Source: Gammaproteobacteria bacterium
GTDB lineage: Bacteria > Pseudomonadota > Gammaproteobacteria > Eutrophobiales > Eutrophobiaceae
Assembly (NCBI GenBank): GCA_030829985.1
Contig: JAURNW010000011.1
Location: 1-64,000, forward strand
DNA length: 64,000 nt
Direction of reading: 5' to 3'
In this document: positions 35,140-41,121 of the stretch, piece after piece
How positions within the stretch are numbered: the stretch's first letter is position 1
Layout: every line of letters starts with the position of its first letter
The notes under the pieces: model-generated
Databases searched by the model: none
What the model was told of the DNA's origin: nothing
The model's input: the letters and a program-made list of their open reading frames with translations, nothing else
Position numbers and translations under genes: made by a program

Positions 35140-37359
35140 ATGCAGCAATCAGCGACGACAGCAGCACCGGGGCATAAACTCATAAATGAATTTTGGGGTG
35201 GTTTAGCGTCCATGCTGGTCGCTTTGCCCTCATCTATTGCGTTTGGGGTACTAGTCTTTTCTGCAATCTCACCGGAATTAGTTGGTCAGGGTGCATTGGT
35301 AGGCATGATCGGGGCGGCCGCACTGGGACTGGTTGCCCCTTTTACTGGCCGGACAGCGGCCTTGATCACCGCACCCTGTGCCCCGGCGGCAGCGATACTC
35401 ACCGGTCTGGCGCTTGCACTGGTCAGTGCGGGTGTAGAAATCGATCGAATTCCCGGGTTGCTTGCTCTCACCGCACTCATCTCAGCATTTTTACAGGTTT
35501 TCTACGGGTTAGTGAAAGGTGGCCGACTCATCAAGTACATCCCCTACCCCGTTGTTAGTGGTTACCTTTCCGGTGTTGGTTTGATTATCGCGATCAGTCA
35601 ACTTCCCAAATTACTTGGTTTGCCGAAAGATACGGGGCTATTACACGGGTTATCATCTCCGGATTTGTGGCAGTGGCCAGGTATCGTTGTTGGGCTTATT
35701 ACTATTTTGGCAATGATAATTGCTCCGCGCGTTACCCTAAAAGTCCCGGCAGCAATCATGGGCCTAATCGCCGGTGTATCCAGTTATTTTGTGCTTGCCC
35801 TGTTTATCCCTGCGTTATTATCGGTGGAAGCCAACCCGCTGATAATCGGTCCTATCCGCTCATCCGGTTCTTTCCTGCAAACGGTAAGCGGGCGTCTTAG
35901 CTCATTACTAACGATCCAGATGAGCGATTTTAAACTCGTTATATATTCAGCTCTGGCATTATCGGCATTGCTTTCCATCGATACTTTAAAGACCTGTGTT
36001 GTCCTCGATGCGCTTACCAAAAACCGTCATAACTCTAACCGCGAATTGTTCGGCCAGGGCATCGCCAATCTTGCTGCCTTTGCCGTTGGTGGTATGCCGG
36101 GCGCTGGAACAATGGGGCCGACATTAGTGAATGTAACCAGTGGAGGAAGAACTACCAAGTCAGGCATTGCCGAAGGCGTGCTGGTTGTACTCGCTATTCT
36201 GTTATTGGCACCCTTGATCGCATGGGTTCCCATTGGTGCACTCGCTGGCATTTTATTGGTGGTCGCTTTTCGCATGTTCGACTGGCATGCATTCCGTTTA
36301 CTACAACATGCGGAAACGCGCCTGGATTTTACCGTCATTGCTGCAGTCGTCATTGTCGCCGAAACAGTGGGGTTAATAGCAGCTTCAGCCACAGGTGTCG
36401 GTCTCGCCATAATATTGTTTATTCGTGATCAGATTAAAGGATCAGTATTGCGCCGACGAGCCTCCATCAAGGAAGTTTCATCCAAGACCCATAGACTCGA
36501 ATCGGAACGTACTGTCCTTGCAGAAAAGGGAGGCATTGCAAACATATATGAATTACAGGGAAACCTCTTCTTTGGAACCACCGATCAGTTATTTACCGAA
36601 TTAGAGCCCGATCTTTGTACCTGCAAGTGGATGCTGTTTGATATGCGTCGGGTTCAATCTCTGGACTACACGGCAGCACATCTTTTTACACTAATGCAGG
36701 ACAGACTAAAGGATCGGGGTGGCAAACTTCTCTTTAGTGGCATGCCATCAAGTCTGCCCAATCGCAAAGACTTATACAGCTATATGATCCGTGTCGGCCT
36801 TGTCGGTGAAAAGGGTAAAGGAATTAGCATCTTTGAAACCCGTGATGAAGCTCTGGAATGGATGGAGAATAAGATCATTGCAGAAGCCGGTTTGACCACG
36901 GAAAGTGAGAAATCAATTCTTGATCTCAGTGAAATAGAACTGTTACGTGAGTTTGATGAGACAACCATCGCCGAGTTGCGTGAATGCGTGCGTGAGCGGA
37001 CTGTTCCTGCCGGGGAAAAAATATTTAAGCATGGTGATGAAGGCGATGAAATCTTTCTGATACGACGCGGAATCATACGTATTATATTGCCGTTAAAACG
37101 CGGCAAGATTCATCATCTGGCAACTTTCAGGCATGGTGACTATTTTGGTGAAATGGCTTTTCTTGATAAGGGACTTCGCTCTGCGGATGCAGAAGCCAAA
37201 ACAAATTGTGAGTTGTACGTGTTATCCAGAGAAGAATTTAATGCCCGGGTGTATAAGGATGCCGTTCTCGGTGTGTGTATCTTCGCACGACTTGCGCTGG
37301 CCGTTTCACTACGACTACGCCAAACGGATAATGAATTACGAGCTGTTGAGGATCGTTAA
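35140..37359 (+). CDS. SulP-family anion transporter fused to STAS and cyclic-nucleotide-binding domains
   Basis: A 739-residue protein with three parts. The SulP membrane domain (about 1-430) contains GRTAALITAPCAPAAAILTG and GGMPGAGTMGPTLVNVTSGG. A STAS domain (about 465-580) shows FDMRRVQSLDYTAAHLFTLM. A C-terminal CAP_ED/cNMP domain (about 605-730) shows FKHGDEGDEIFLIRRGIIRI and the FRHGDYFGEMAFLDKGLRSA phosphate-binding cassette. The substrate (sulfate, bicarbonate or other anion) is not readable. The cNMP domain implies gating by a cyclic nucleotide. The first part is G+C-rich (114 of 180 bases at 35281-35460), above the 86 of 180 counted in the neighbouring carbonic-anhydrase-like gene. 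Confidence 0.92.
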   Translation: MQQSATTAAPGHKLINEFWGGLASMLVALPSSIAFGVLVFSAISPELVGQGALVGMIGAAALGLVAPFTGRTAALITAPCAPAAAILTGLALALVSAGVEIDRIPGLLALTALISAFLQVFYGLVKGGRLIKYIPYPVVSGYLSGVGLIIAISQLPKLLGLPKDTGLLHGLSSPDLWQWPGIVVGLITILAMIIAPRVTLKVPAAIMGLIAGVSSYFVLALFIPALLSVEANPLIIGPIRSSGSFLQTVSGRLSSLLTIQMSDFKLVIYSALALSALLSIDTLKTCVVLDALTKNRHNSNRELFGQGIANLAAFAVGGMPGAGTMGPTLVNVTSGGRTTKSGIAEGVLVVLAILLLAPLIAWVPIGALAGILLVVAFRMFDWHAFRLLQHAETRLDFTVIAAVVIVAETVGLIAASATGVGLAIILFIRDQIKGSVLRRRASIKEVSSKTHRLESERTVLAEKGGIANIYELQGNLFFGTTDQLFTELEPDLCTCKWMLFDMRRVQSLDYTAAHLFTLMQDRLKDRGGKLLFSGMPSSLPNRKDLYSYMIRVGLVGEKGKGISIFETRDEALEWMENKIIAEAGLTTESEKSILDLSEIELLREFDETTIAELRECVRERTVPAGEKIFKHGDEGDEIFLIRRGIIRIILPLKRGKIHHLATFRHGDYFGEMAFLDKGLRSADAEAKTNCELYVLSREEFNARVYKDAVLGVCIFARLALAVSLRLRQTDNELRAVEDR

Positions 37360-37480: not shown

Positions 37481-38134
37481 TTACTTCGTCACAGGTTGCA
37501 AGGTAATTTCCACGCGCCGGTTTTGTTGTCTACCTTCCTCAGTTGCATTATCTGCAATCGGTAAAGACTCACCATAACCCGTTGTAAATAATCGTTCTGA
37601 AATCACCCCTCTTGCATTTAATGCTGCGCGAACACTATTAGCACGATTAACCGAAAGCTGTTGATTGAATTCAGCGCTTCCAACACTGTCTGTATGTCCG
37701 GCAACATGAACGATCGTAGATTCATATTTGGCTAATGTATTCCCAACATTATCCAAAATACTATTAAAAGCGGGATTGATGGTTGCCTTGCCGGTCGCAA
37801 ACGTAATATTTGAAGGCATATTCAATTCAATATTATCTCCGACACGTTCGACTTCAACACCCGTACCTTCCAGATCCTTACGCAGAGCTTCTTCCTGTTT
37901 ATCCATATAAACCCCAATACCGGCGCCAGCTAATGCACCAACACCCGCGCCAATTACCGCCGCCTTCATACCATCACCGATGAGTACACCAGCGAGTGCA
38001 CCGGTAGCAGCACCGGCCACAGCACCTGTCTTGGTGTTGCTATGCTGTGTTTCACCTGTGTTTGGATTAAACGTTGTGCATGCACTCGACGCTACTAAAA
38101 CTAATGCCGCTGTAAATATGTATATTTTTTTCAT
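37481..38134 (-). CDS. OmpA-family lipoprotein with glycine-zipper (YiaD type)
   Basis: A 217-residue protein. A signal sequence ends in a lipobox-like ASSAC. A glycine-rich zipper region (AGAATGALAGVLIGDG, GAGVGALAGAGIGVYMDK) follows. The C-terminal OmpA peptidoglycan-binding domain (about 100-215) carries HVAGHTDSVGSAEFNQQLSV and the arginine of QNRRVEITL. It probably sits in the outer membrane and binds murein non-covalently. I chose the ATG at 38134, where the signal peptide starts. The region upstream has two adjacent palindromes at 38221-38252. Confidence 0.9.
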   Translation of the reverse strand: MKKIYIFTAALVLVASSACTTFNPNTGETQHSNTKTGAVAGAATGALAGVLIGDGMKAAVIGAGVGALAGAGIGVYMDKQEEALRKDLEGTGVEVERVGDNIELNMPSNITFATGKATINPAFNSILDNVGNTLAKYESTIVHVAGHTDSVGSAEFNQQLSVNRANSVRAALNARGVISERLFTTGYGESLPIADNATEEGRQQNRRVEITLQPVTK

Positions 38135-38220
38135 TGGTTTTATTGTTTCCAGTTTGTGTAGTTTATTTTCTATTACGATCACATTGACTCAATTTACACC
38201 GTATATATTCAGCATCGCAC

Positions 38221-38521: not shown

Positions 38522-38551
38522 ACAGGGGATAGACTTAAGTCTATCCCCTGT
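38522..38551 (-). terminator. 30-base perfect palindrome, terminator of the cytochrome operon
   Basis: ACAGGGGATAGACTT-AAGTCTATCCCCTGT is a perfect 15+15 inverted repeat 13 bases after the cytochrome c stop, followed on the minus strand by ATTTAAAAC. Its position directly after the last gene favours a terminator or 3' stabiliser over an operator. Confidence 0.7.
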
Positions 38552-38564
38552 CATTAGGTAATGA

Positions 38565-39320
38565 CTATTTCCCGAGTGGGAATTTAATCAGGTTTTCCGG
38601 TCCCAGCACACCATCACCACGTGCAACAAGATATGCGTATAGATTATCGAGATTATCCATAACACGTTTATTGGTATTGTGCGGCCTCATCATGGTGCCG
38701 GACTTGCCATGAGTCACAATATCAACAAATTCATCCTTGCTTAATTTTTGCGTCACACTGTTACCAAGATCGGGACCAACGGCTCCGATACCACCCTTAC
38801 CATGACACGCACCACAGCCACCGCCATTGTAAGTTTTCCACCCCTCAAGGATATTGGCACTTGGTTTACCATCGACAATTTGATAAGGCTTATCACCGCT
38901 AGTCTCCGTAACTGTTGTACTACCCGTTGTTACAGCTTTTAGTTCAGTGGCTTTCGCTTCGGCTGCTGCTTTTGCTTCAGCGGCTTTCACTTCTGCTGCA
39001 ACTTTTGCTTCAGCAATTAAATCTGTTGCATTTTGTACCGCTTCATTCGACGCGTCTGCGACAGGTGCTTGAGTATACGGCCAGTTTTCATAGATCTCTT
39101 CCTGATACACCACCTTGCTCGGGAGATACACTATCTCCGTCGCTACTGCCGGTGTCACGTCTGTGACCGGCATATCCGGCACTTTGGCAGGCAATTGAAC
39201 TGCTGTGGCATCGCTTGAGGGTGCTGCCATTTTTTGTTCTGGTGCATTACTGTCACCACAGGCAAACATAACACTGCCAGAAAAGAGTACTAATAAAACT
39301 ATTTTTAATTGTTTAGACAT
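38565..39320 (-). CDS. c-type cytochrome lipoprotein with Ala/Glu/Lys-rich linker
   Basis: A 251-residue protein. The signal peptide ends in a lipobox (VMFAC), so the protein is probably lipid-anchored in the periplasm. Next comes a variable region containing VVYQEEIYENWPY. A helical linker of about 35 residues is built from repeats of EAKAAAEAKA type. The C-terminal single-heme cytochrome c domain has heme motif CGACH, the GIGAVGPDLGN loop and a likely axial methionine in SGTMMRPHN. The start is the ATG at 39320. Its operon partner upstream is a small lipoprotein with the same VYQ-D/E-EIY motif. The redox partner is unknown. Confidence 0.88.
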   Translation of the reverse strand: MSKQLKIVLLVLFSGSVMFACGDSNAPEQKMAAPSSDATAVQLPAKVPDMPVTDVTPAVATEIVYLPSKVVYQEEIYENWPYTQAPVADASNEAVQNATDLIAEAKVAAEVKAAEAKAAAEAKATELKAVTTGSTTVTETSGDKPYQIVDGKPSANILEGWKTYNGGGCGACHGKGGIGAVGPDLGNSVTQKLSKDEFVDIVTHGKSGTMMRPHNTNKRVMDNLDNLYAYLVARGDGVLGPENLIKFPLGK

Positions 39321-39347
39321 TGAAATCACATACAAATCTATTGTTAT

Positions 39348-39566
39348 TTAGTTATATGGCCAGTTAGCATAGATTTCGTCTTGATAAACGACGCCTTCGG
39401 CTTTTTCAATTTTCATTGCTGATGACGCTTCACCACCGCCAGATGCAGGTGTTGCCGGGGTAGCCGCTGCCGGTGCAGTCATAGTGGTTTTATCATCATC
39501 ACCACAAGCAATTAAGCCAAGCCCTAAAATCATTCCCAAACTTACATTTCGAATAACAGAATACAT
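39348..39566 (-). CDS. small lipoprotein sharing a motif with the adjacent cytochrome
   Basis: A 72-residue protein. A signal peptide ends in the lipobox LIAC, followed by GDDDKTT, then an Ala/Pro/Thr-rich spacer, and it closes with VVYQDEIYANWPYN. Both the ACGD start of the mature protein and the final 13 residues resemble the cytochrome c lipoprotein 27 bases downstream. The ATG at 39566 has a good site (GGGAGTGG). A longer in-frame reading from 39791 would overlap the divergent peptidase gene and lacks signal-peptide character. The family is not recognised. Confidence 0.78.
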   Translation of the reverse strand: MYSVIRNVSLGMILGLGLIACGDDDKTTMTAPAAATPATPASGGGEASSAMKIEKAEGVVYQDEIYANWPYN

Positions 39567-39699: not shown

Positions 39700-41121
39700 A
39701 TGAACAAACAATTAACTGAATCATTCTGCGCAAACCAATGGGATAGCACAGTTATCCCGGAGTTGATTGAATACATCCGTATACCGAACAAATCACCTGC
39801 TTTTGATCCGGATTGGCAGACACATGGCTATATGGATCAAGTAGTTACGCAATTTTCTAACTGGTGTCTCAAACAGAATATTAATGGGATGACACTGGAA
39901 GTAATCCGTTTGGTTGATCGTACACCTCTCATCTATATAGAGGTTGCAGGCTCGATTGAAAACACCATCCTCCTTTATGGTCATTTAGATAAACAACCTG
40001 AAATGTCAGGCTGGAGAGACGGACTAGGCCCATGGCAACCTGTACTCGACGACGACAAACTTTACGGTCGGGGGGGTGCGGACGATGGTTATGCAACATT
40101 TTCCTCTTTACTCGCTATCAAAGCATTACAAGAACAAGACATCCCGCACGCGCGCTGCGTAATTATCATTGAAGCCTGTGAAGAAAGTGGCAGCTATGAC
40201 TTACCTTTTTACATTGACCATTTAGCCGCTCGTATCGGTACGCCGGAGTTGGTCATTTGTCTGGATTCGGGCTGTGGCAACTATGAGCAATTGTGGTCAA
40301 CCACCTCTTTACGTGGCCTGATTGGCGGCACATTAAGAGTTGATGTGCTAGTGGAAGGCATACATTCGGGTGACGCCAGCGGAATTGTTCCTTCCAGTTT
40401 TCGAATCCTCCGACAATTACTGGATCGACTTGAAGATGCCAAAAGCGGAAAGATACTGGCATCGGAGTTTTATACCGAGATTCCCGAGAAAAGGATTGAG
40501 CAGGCACAACGAGCGGCAGAGATGATGGGAGATGCTGTCTATAAACGTTTCCCGATGAAAAGCGAATTGCAAGCTATGCATGTAGAACCGACGGAGCTGG
40601 TATTAAACCGGAGTTGGCGACCGGCCTTATCCTATATCGGTGCGGATGGTCTTCCGGATATTGAATCTGCCGGTAATGTTTTACGACCATCAACTTCAAT
40701 CAAATTATCTATGCGGCTACCACCTTGCTGTGATGCTGAACATGCCAGTAAAAAGCTGGCCGAAATATTATTAAGCGATCCACCCTATGGCGCCGAGATT
40801 AGCTATACACCAGACTGGGCAGCAAACGGCTGGATGGCGCCTGAAATAGCACCCTGGTTAGAACACGCCATGGATGAGGCCTCACTGAATTACTTCAATA
40901 AACCTGCTGTTTTGATGGGTGAAGGTTGGTCAATTCCATTCATGGGTATGCTGGGAGAAAAATTTCCCGAGGCACAGTTTCTGATTACCGGTGTACTAGG
41001 TCCGGGATCCAACGCCCATGGCCCAAATGAATTTCTGCATATACCGACCGCAAAAAAGTTAACGTGTTGTGTTGCAGAAGTCATAGCCAAACATTATTTA
41101 CATGCGACCAGGGAAGCGTAA
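39700..41121 (+). CDS. M20-family metallopeptidase
   Basis: A 473-residue di-zinc peptidase. Metal and catalytic segments are LLYGHLDKQPEMSGW (His and Asp), GRGGADDGYATFSSLLAI, and the general-base glutamates in IIIEACEESGSYDLPF. A late GPGSNAHGPNEF supplies the last histidine. The HLDKQPE form resembles dipeptidase or carboxypeptidase members. The ATG at 39700 (NKQLTESFCANQW) is chosen over an upstream in-frame ATG at 39652. It is divergent from the small lipoprotein gene. Confidence 0.92.
   Translation: MNKQLTESFCANQWDSTVIPELIEYIRIPNKSPAFDPDWQTHGYMDQVVTQFSNWCLKQNINGMTLEVIRLVDRTPLIYIEVAGSIENTILLYGHLDKQPEMSGWRDGLGPWQPVLDDDKLYGRGGADDGYATFSSLLAIKALQEQDIPHARCVIIIEACEESGSYDLPFYIDHLAARIGTPELVICLDSGCGNYEQLWSTTSLRGLIGGTLRVDVLVEGIHSGDASGIVPSSFRILRQLLDRLEDAKSGKILASEFYTEIPEKRIEQAQRAAEMMGDAVYKRFPMKSELQAMHVEPTELVLNRSWRPALSYIGADGLPDIESAGNVLRPSTSIKLSMRLPPCCDAEHASKKLAEILLSDPPYGAEISYTPDWAANGWMAPEIAPWLEHAMDEASLNYFNKPAVLMGEGWSIPFMGMLGEKFPEAQFLITGVLGPGSNAHGPNEFLHIPTAKKLTCCVAEVIAKHYLHATREA

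Follow-up and report, generated by a model that had tools for sequence, protein, structure and literature searches.

The lipoprotein Lip of Neisseria is not known to have a redox head. Passages of one study describe AAEAP-type repeats that are common to Lip (H.8) and the lipid-modified azurin Laz, with imperfect copies in the nitrite reductase AniA (PMC5542605), and passages of another describe Laz as a tethered azurin (PMC6277709). Cytochrome cy of Rhodobacter is a tethered carrier as well, and part of a further study describes an engineered supercomplex in which the interface retains its anchor and the head is mobile (PMC7876108). By analogy, Lip/Laz and cytochrome cy appear to be the closest precedents for the locus described here, which lies in a gammaproteobacterial genome of 2.17 Mb (G000), within a window of 64,000 nucleotides (the whole stretch of DNA that was analysed). 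A small head-less lipoprotein and a tethered cytochrome c are encoded side by side and have a short peptide in common. In relatives this tag is kept while the heme-binding head is swapped for a copper-binding one, which suggests a plug for an envelope partner.

Layout of the locus

The features concerned are the following (coordinates refer to the window):

38522..38551, minus strand: perfect 13-bp hairpin just 3' of the cytochrome gene (-25.2 kcal/mol, z -6.6; absent from the list of a pattern scan), a probable transcript end
38565..39320, minus strand: gene of the tethered cytochrome c, a predicted lipoprotein (251 aa from ATG; Pfam Cytochrome_CBB3 39.1 bits, cut-off 27)
38568..38894, minus strand: XoxG-like c-type heme head, residues 143-251 (PDB XoxG 6onq, E 2.1e-6; profile 1.9e-7)
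38802-38816, minus strand: heme-binding CGACH, residues 169-173 of the cytochrome (from the sequence)
38925..39059, minus strand: Ala/Glu/Lys-rich arm, residues 88-132 (from the sequence; one helix in a low-confidence model, pLDDT mostly about 45-51)
39075..39110, minus strand: motif VYQEEIYENWPY in the cytochrome tether (pattern search and codon comparison)
39348..39566, minus strand: gene of the small head-less lipoprotein, 72 aa (lipobox LIAC, Pro/Ala linker, C-terminal VVYQDEIYANWPYN; homologues found)
39354..39389, minus strand: motif VYQDEIYANWPY in the small lipoprotein (pattern search and codon comparison)
39700..41121, plus strand: divergent M20-family peptidase, synteny marker of the locus (Pfam PF01546, 63 bits)

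Coordinates and sequences confirm what the sequence-only reading had noted, namely that the two genes are adjacent and co-directional with a gap of 27 bases (39321-39347) and that, with Cys at residue 21 in both proteins, each mature chain would start with CGD. Both are predicted to be lipoproteins; the lipobox of the cytochrome (MFAC) is atypical and that of its orthologues canonical (e.g. LVAC and LLAC). In the cytochrome, the lipobox is followed by ~50 residues, VVYQEEIYENWPY (residues 70-82), the Ala/Glu/Lys-rich arm and the c-type heme head, the tether amounting to 123 residues; an AlphaFold2 model of this carrier, built from 3 sequences, had an uninformative mean pLDDT of 36.6. The small lipoprotein matched no Pfam family and its NCBIfam matches were all noise below the cut-offs; because it holds only an anchor, a linker and the tag, its function would have to lie in the tag. 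The M20 peptidase marker is present in 36 of the 53 genomes with which the window's family was sampled. Two genes, read from sequence as encoding a SulP-like transporter with an apparent cyclic-nucleotide-binding domain (35140-37359) and an OmpA-like protein (37481-38182), separate the cytochrome from a gamma carbonic anhydrase in the window; in G001 the anhydrase follows directly after the carrier.

Conservation of the shared motif

The near-identical 13-residue motif that had been reported at the C-terminus of the lipoprotein and in the cytochrome ahead of its Ala-rich arm is borne out by the comparison of the two genes. The copies share 11 of 13 residues and 31 of 39 bases, and the motif codons comprise 6 identical ones, 5 with synonymous changes and 2 with replacements. 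The likeness is greater than chance: aligned without gaps, the two mature chains reach a score of 70 at best, whereas 1000 shuffles averaged 27.5 and never exceeded 49, and the top score of the small lipoprotein against the 65 other called ORFs of the window is 36. A degenerate DNA pattern of the motif occurs at two places only in the window's genome, both in these genes, and the looser pattern EIYxxWP finds the same two places and no others.

Homologues of the small gene were found in 16 of the 53 family genomes. The profile tally was 17, from which G013 was dropped (there the match lies at the N-terminal end of a frame of 712 aa), and G039 and G049 had entered through matches to their carriers. 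The gene is intact in 13 genomes (14 genes); a contig end cuts the copies of G036 and G039, the latter being a contig-edge fragment, and the short form of G049 ends in VVYMDEIYK, before NWPY. Twelve of the 14 intact genes end exactly in YQDEIYANWPYN, one of them with QD after it, and in every copy the motif sits after a flexible linker.

A codon comparison was made among 13 intact small genes (78 pairs), with the diverged G040 left out. In the 11 motif codons 303 differences were synonymous and 24 were replacements; every one of the 24 came from G010, whose small lipoprotein has two changes in the motif (M and G). The 9 codons preceding the motif showed 184 synonymous and 270 replacement differences. 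Since synonymous changes dominate in the motif and replacements in the codons before it, selection maintains the motif as a peptide: it is under strong purifying selection, which the residues that precede it are not.

A motif search in further genomes, as proposed in the sequence-only reading, did find motif-bearing relatives, within the window's family only. The strict pattern was found in 8 of the 53 family genomes, and class-wide the looser pattern was found in 3 of 369 genomes (a sample that included 4 genomes of the family), all three from the family. Judged from these sequences, the motif does not extend beyond the family of the window, and the pattern was found in no further gene of the 53 family genomes. 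Seven loose EIYxxWP matches in the family (G015, G034:C64, G038, G009, G041, G050 and G003:C14) were rejected as unrelated frames with 20-86 residues between stops. When the small-lipoprotein alignment was used as a profile across the class, matches appeared in 122 of 369 genomes, which we do not accept as evidence of spread: most of the listed matches cover the signal peptide and Pro/Ala linker only, and among 30 loci the 4 non-family ones examined (G211, G229, G356 and G306), where the matches run furthest toward the C-terminus, have no motif. A scan for related loci returned 2 loci only, and a literature search on the string NWPY gave nothing on the subject among the matches listed, as judged by title.

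Duplication, co-divergence and lone small genes

Partial gene duplication combined with a common docking partner had been put forward in the sequence-only reading. The duplication finds its best support in G040 (genus g14), where small gene and carrier have 21 of 27 residues and 69 of 81 bases in common, through the motif; in the window pair only the lipobox region is alike apart from the motif. The pattern in g14 supports either a partial duplication or gene conversion from one copy to the other. Both copies in this genome have changed (GEEEIYNNWPE and SEEEIYKHWPE), a co-divergence that fits adaptation of both to one partner and leaves a common docking partner plausible on the sequences compared; on the other side stand three tethered cytochromes that carry no motif, and no partner was found. 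The co-divergence could also be gene conversion, which would count against docking.

That the likeness is a mere remnant of partial duplication with no present function is very improbable. The g14 pair does resemble a duplication across at least 27 codons, but such a remnant accounts neither for strong purifying selection that acts on the motif and spares the preceding residues, nor for the persistence of the motif through the exchange of heads and in three lone copies. These lone copies are the small genes of G002, G008 and G011, which keep the motif intact; the three genomes have no neighbouring carrier of the searched classes, and their M20 peptidase is gone or broken. Because the small lipoprotein is kept there, it would not be merely an accessory of the carrier.

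The same genomes weigh on the idea that the motif self-associates, so that small lipoprotein and carrier would form mixed membrane clusters with the small one as spacer. Its appeal is that both copies within a genome share the motif and changed together in g14, and that the two genes are adjacent and co-directional. Yet a small lipoprotein with intact motif was found with no motif-bearing carrier in G002, G008, G011, G004, G007 and G035, and we regard self-association as improbable.

Exchange of the redox head

The tethered protein at the M20 locus carries three kinds of head: an XoxG-like cytochrome c (8 genomes: G000, G001, G004, G006, G007, G010, G035 and G049), a pseudoazurin (8 genomes) and a cytochrome c of another class (1 genome). 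The motif is found on the cytochrome tethers of G000, G001, G006, G010 and G049. It is not specific to cytochromes and occurs also on the pseudoazurin tethers of G003 (two contigs), G034, G039 and G040; the pseudoazurin carriers of G032, G041 and G042 have neither motif nor small gene. Beside the peptidase of G017 a soluble cytochrome lies near a tethered pseudoazurin. The third kind, in G012, is a CxxCH cytochrome of another class, borne at this locus by a lipoprotein tether rich in Pro, Ala and Glu (L237:658-1260), whose head we read as cytochrome c5-like from its sequence.

The expectation that homologues of the cytochrome would keep both the small gene and the motif holds in part: in G004, G007 and G035 the cytochrome tether has no motif while the adjacent small gene keeps it, and lipoprotein cytochromes of the same kind found elsewhere, in G050-G052, have neither. 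Neither gene needs the other everywhere, given these motif-less carriers, the lone small genes of G002, G008 and G011, the altered motif of G010 and the short gene of G049. Such a distribution bears on a further explanation, in which the motif directs the placement of two lipoproteins in the envelope (outer membrane, surface or cell wall), apart from electron transfer. The small lipoprotein lacks a redox head and persists where no carrier lies beside it, the motif follows a flexible linker in all copies, and the residues after the cysteine (CGD, CGE and CSD starts) would permit outer-membrane sorting by the E. coli rule. Many lipoproteins of the same genomes must, however, be sorted without the motif, the pattern occurs in no other gene of the family, and three carriers at the locus do without it. 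We consider placement rather unlikely, though less so than self-association.

Comparison of the tethers shows, at the level of sequence, that the tether start and the motif survive the exchange and that tethers under different heads are homologous. Over the first 30 tether residues the copper carrier of G034 has 12-14 identities with the heme carriers of G000, G001, G004, G006 and G007, and 0 of 500 shuffles reached any of the five scores. The likeness is weaker for the tether of G003, with shuffles as good numbering 0 of 500 against G000 and 2 against G001, and 36, 48 and 15 of 500 against G004, G006 and G007, respectively. Arm length varies from 27 to 112 residues across the carriers. The head of G003 matches pseudoazurin (3tu6, E 1.7e-20) and passes the cut-off of Pfam Copper-bind (57 bits, cut-off 21.2), scoring below that of TIGR02375 (83.3 bits, cut-off 109.85); the head of G034 is 79% identical to it. 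In a 5-row alignment of the pseudoazurin heads H37, C75, H78 and M83 are invariant, which we take to be the type 1 copper ligands His, Cys, His and Met of pseudoazurin.

On the M20 tree of 30 loci at least 5 head changes are needed and, for the small gene, 2; these counts are provisional because the M20 and gamma carbonic anhydrase trees disagree on the position of G040. The carbonic anhydrase of G040 (L208:7563-8090) groups with that of G007 (L042:51-581) at 100/100, against the M20 tree, and has possibly been transferred or replaced. A tree of 19 cytochrome heads, which does not include three second copies, resolved little: 1 of 16 inner branches was starred. The exchange of heads, which could not be seen from the window's sequence alone, is the more informative finding.

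The putative electron route

Among PDB entries the heme head matches XoxG best (6onq, E 2.1e-6), and it also matches cytochrome cL (2d0w, 0.0076). It is a class I cytochrome head homologous to theirs, with scores below the NCBIfam cut-offs (40 of 161.75 bits for TIGR03874 and 17.3 of 147.8 bits for TIGR03872). No xoxF- or mxaF-type dehydrogenase gene was found beside the carrier genes in the stretches around the locus. The xoxF operon of the family, as read in G004, encodes XoxF (6dam, E 1e-222), a soluble pseudoazurin, XoxJ (6onp, 5.9e-35) and a 260-aa protein with no Pfam or NCBIfam match. Soluble pseudoazurin takes the place of the expected XoxG in the xoxF operons at L205:5241-9602, L206, L207, L212, L213:8708-10874, L182 and L184; in L207, L212 and L213 XoxF is cut by the contig end or lies beyond it, and in G000 xoxF itself would fall past a contig end. 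The matching passages of the literature describe no operon that combines XoxF with pseudoazurin, and these searches do not establish its absence from print. Parts of one study report that UBA4486 bacteria transcribe xoxF5 in the ocean (PMC12542740).

All 8 genomes with a tethered XoxG-like cytochrome at the locus have a second one elsewhere, which is soluble as read from the sequence in G000, G004, G007 and G010 and as inferred from reading-frame length in the other genomes; the twin in the window's genome, on C17, has an apparent ordinary signal peptide. No such cytochrome was found in G003 and G034, which have pseudoazurin heads. Head type therefore tracks the soluble carriers, and both main head types have a soluble counterpart in the family. 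Tethered and second-copy heads within a genome are 96.3% identical in G010 (L043, L053) and 94.4% in G004 (L041, L050), in part a closer match than between orthologues and a hint of gene conversion between the two copies.

Two genes for heme-copper oxidase subunit I are present in the window's genome. Because of the XoxG-like head, the soluble counterparts of both head types and the presence of heme-copper oxidases, the tethered carrier is likely a member of a methanol-to-oxygen chain, in which its direct partners are inferred. Heme-copper oxidases as the cause of the distribution were rejected, since all 10 tested genomes have them and G011, with a small gene and no carrier beside it, has one match. 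The window's genome also has a PQQ alcohol dehydrogenase with an adjacent PedF-type cytochrome (L065:6545-8954; TIGR04494 177 bits, cut-off 122), which is a separate alcohol-oxidation system. The possibility that the window's cytochrome serves this PedE-like dehydrogenase was dropped, as the enzyme has its own PedF-type cytochrome next to it.

A possible docking tag

We tentatively favour the explanation that the motif is a docking tag which would pin swappable tethered carriers to one envelope partner in lanthanide-methanol oxidisers. We give it somewhat less than an even chance and rank it above placement in the envelope and, after that, self-association; the duplication remnant is disfavoured. 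We propose docking because the motif is selected at the protein level and present on both cytochrome and pseudoazurin tethers, because the tether start of G034 matches those of five cytochrome carriers with none of 500 shuffles as good, because the head tracks soluble carriers and a soluble pseudoazurin sits inside the xoxF-xoxJ operon, and because both motif copies changed together in g14.

The locus would thus encode a periplasmic electron carrier that is tethered to the membrane and whose redox head can be exchanged; part of the family adds a head-less companion lipoprotein. The common peptide of 12-13 residues would dock both proteins onto the same envelope protein. On the carrier, the tag would fix the base of the tether beside this partner, so that the head, on an arm of 27-112 residues, could commute between donor and acceptor. 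The donor would probably be XoxF, the lanthanide methanol dehydrogenase, or the soluble carriers of this enzyme, and the acceptor probably a heme-copper oxidase. The small lipoprotein would be a plug without a head that, acting as scaffold, spacer or regulator, occupies or organises those same sites. Four parts of this account are inferred: that the proteins are lipidated, that they dock, the path of the electrons and what the small lipoprotein does. No partner for the motif was found and none is evident beside the genes. A CGD start predicts the outer membrane under the E. coli lipoprotein sorting rule; such a position would not fit an inner-membrane partner and would count against docking.

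A bolder version, which we hold to be doubtful, is that the motif is the dedicated plug of an undescribed envelope scaffold of lanthanide-methanol-oxidising gammaproteobacteria, which would take any tagged heme or copper carrier, leaving the organism free to exchange its redox head, while the head-less plug fills or gates spare sockets. If the motif is a plug, the 13-residue peptide would be a ready bait for the protein to which lanthanide methanol oxidation passes its electrons in an uncultured marine group. Evolution would then have swapped a heme carrier for a copper carrier through a change confined to the head of a tethered protein, a modular parallel to the interchange that is known for soluble cytochromes and cupredoxins.

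Comparison with known systems

Like Lip and Laz of Neisseria, the locus would combine a small head-less lipoprotein and a lipoprotein carrier with one peptide element in common, a likeness that we regard as analogy and not descent. The Neisseria element is a simple Ala/Pro pentapeptide repeat, whereas that of the window is a single aromatic/acidic 12-mer that survives the change from a heme to a copper head; AAEAP is absent from both window proteins. With cytochrome cy the carrier shares, as far as can be told from the gene sequences, a membrane anchor, a long linker and a cytochrome head, with a soluble alternative in the genome. It differs in having a predicted lipid anchor and not a transmembrane helix, a conserved tether peptide, a head-less companion and relatives with heads of different folds. 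The heme head resembles XoxG in its best PDB match; unlike XoxG, the window's cytochrome is tethered, does not lie beside xoxF and scores below the NCBIfam cut-offs, and a pseudoazurin occupies the place of XoxG in the xoxF operon. The carrier head of G003, which that of G034 closely resembles, matches pseudoazurins; it differs from them in scoring below the TIGR02375 cut-off and in being tethered, with the motif in the linker.
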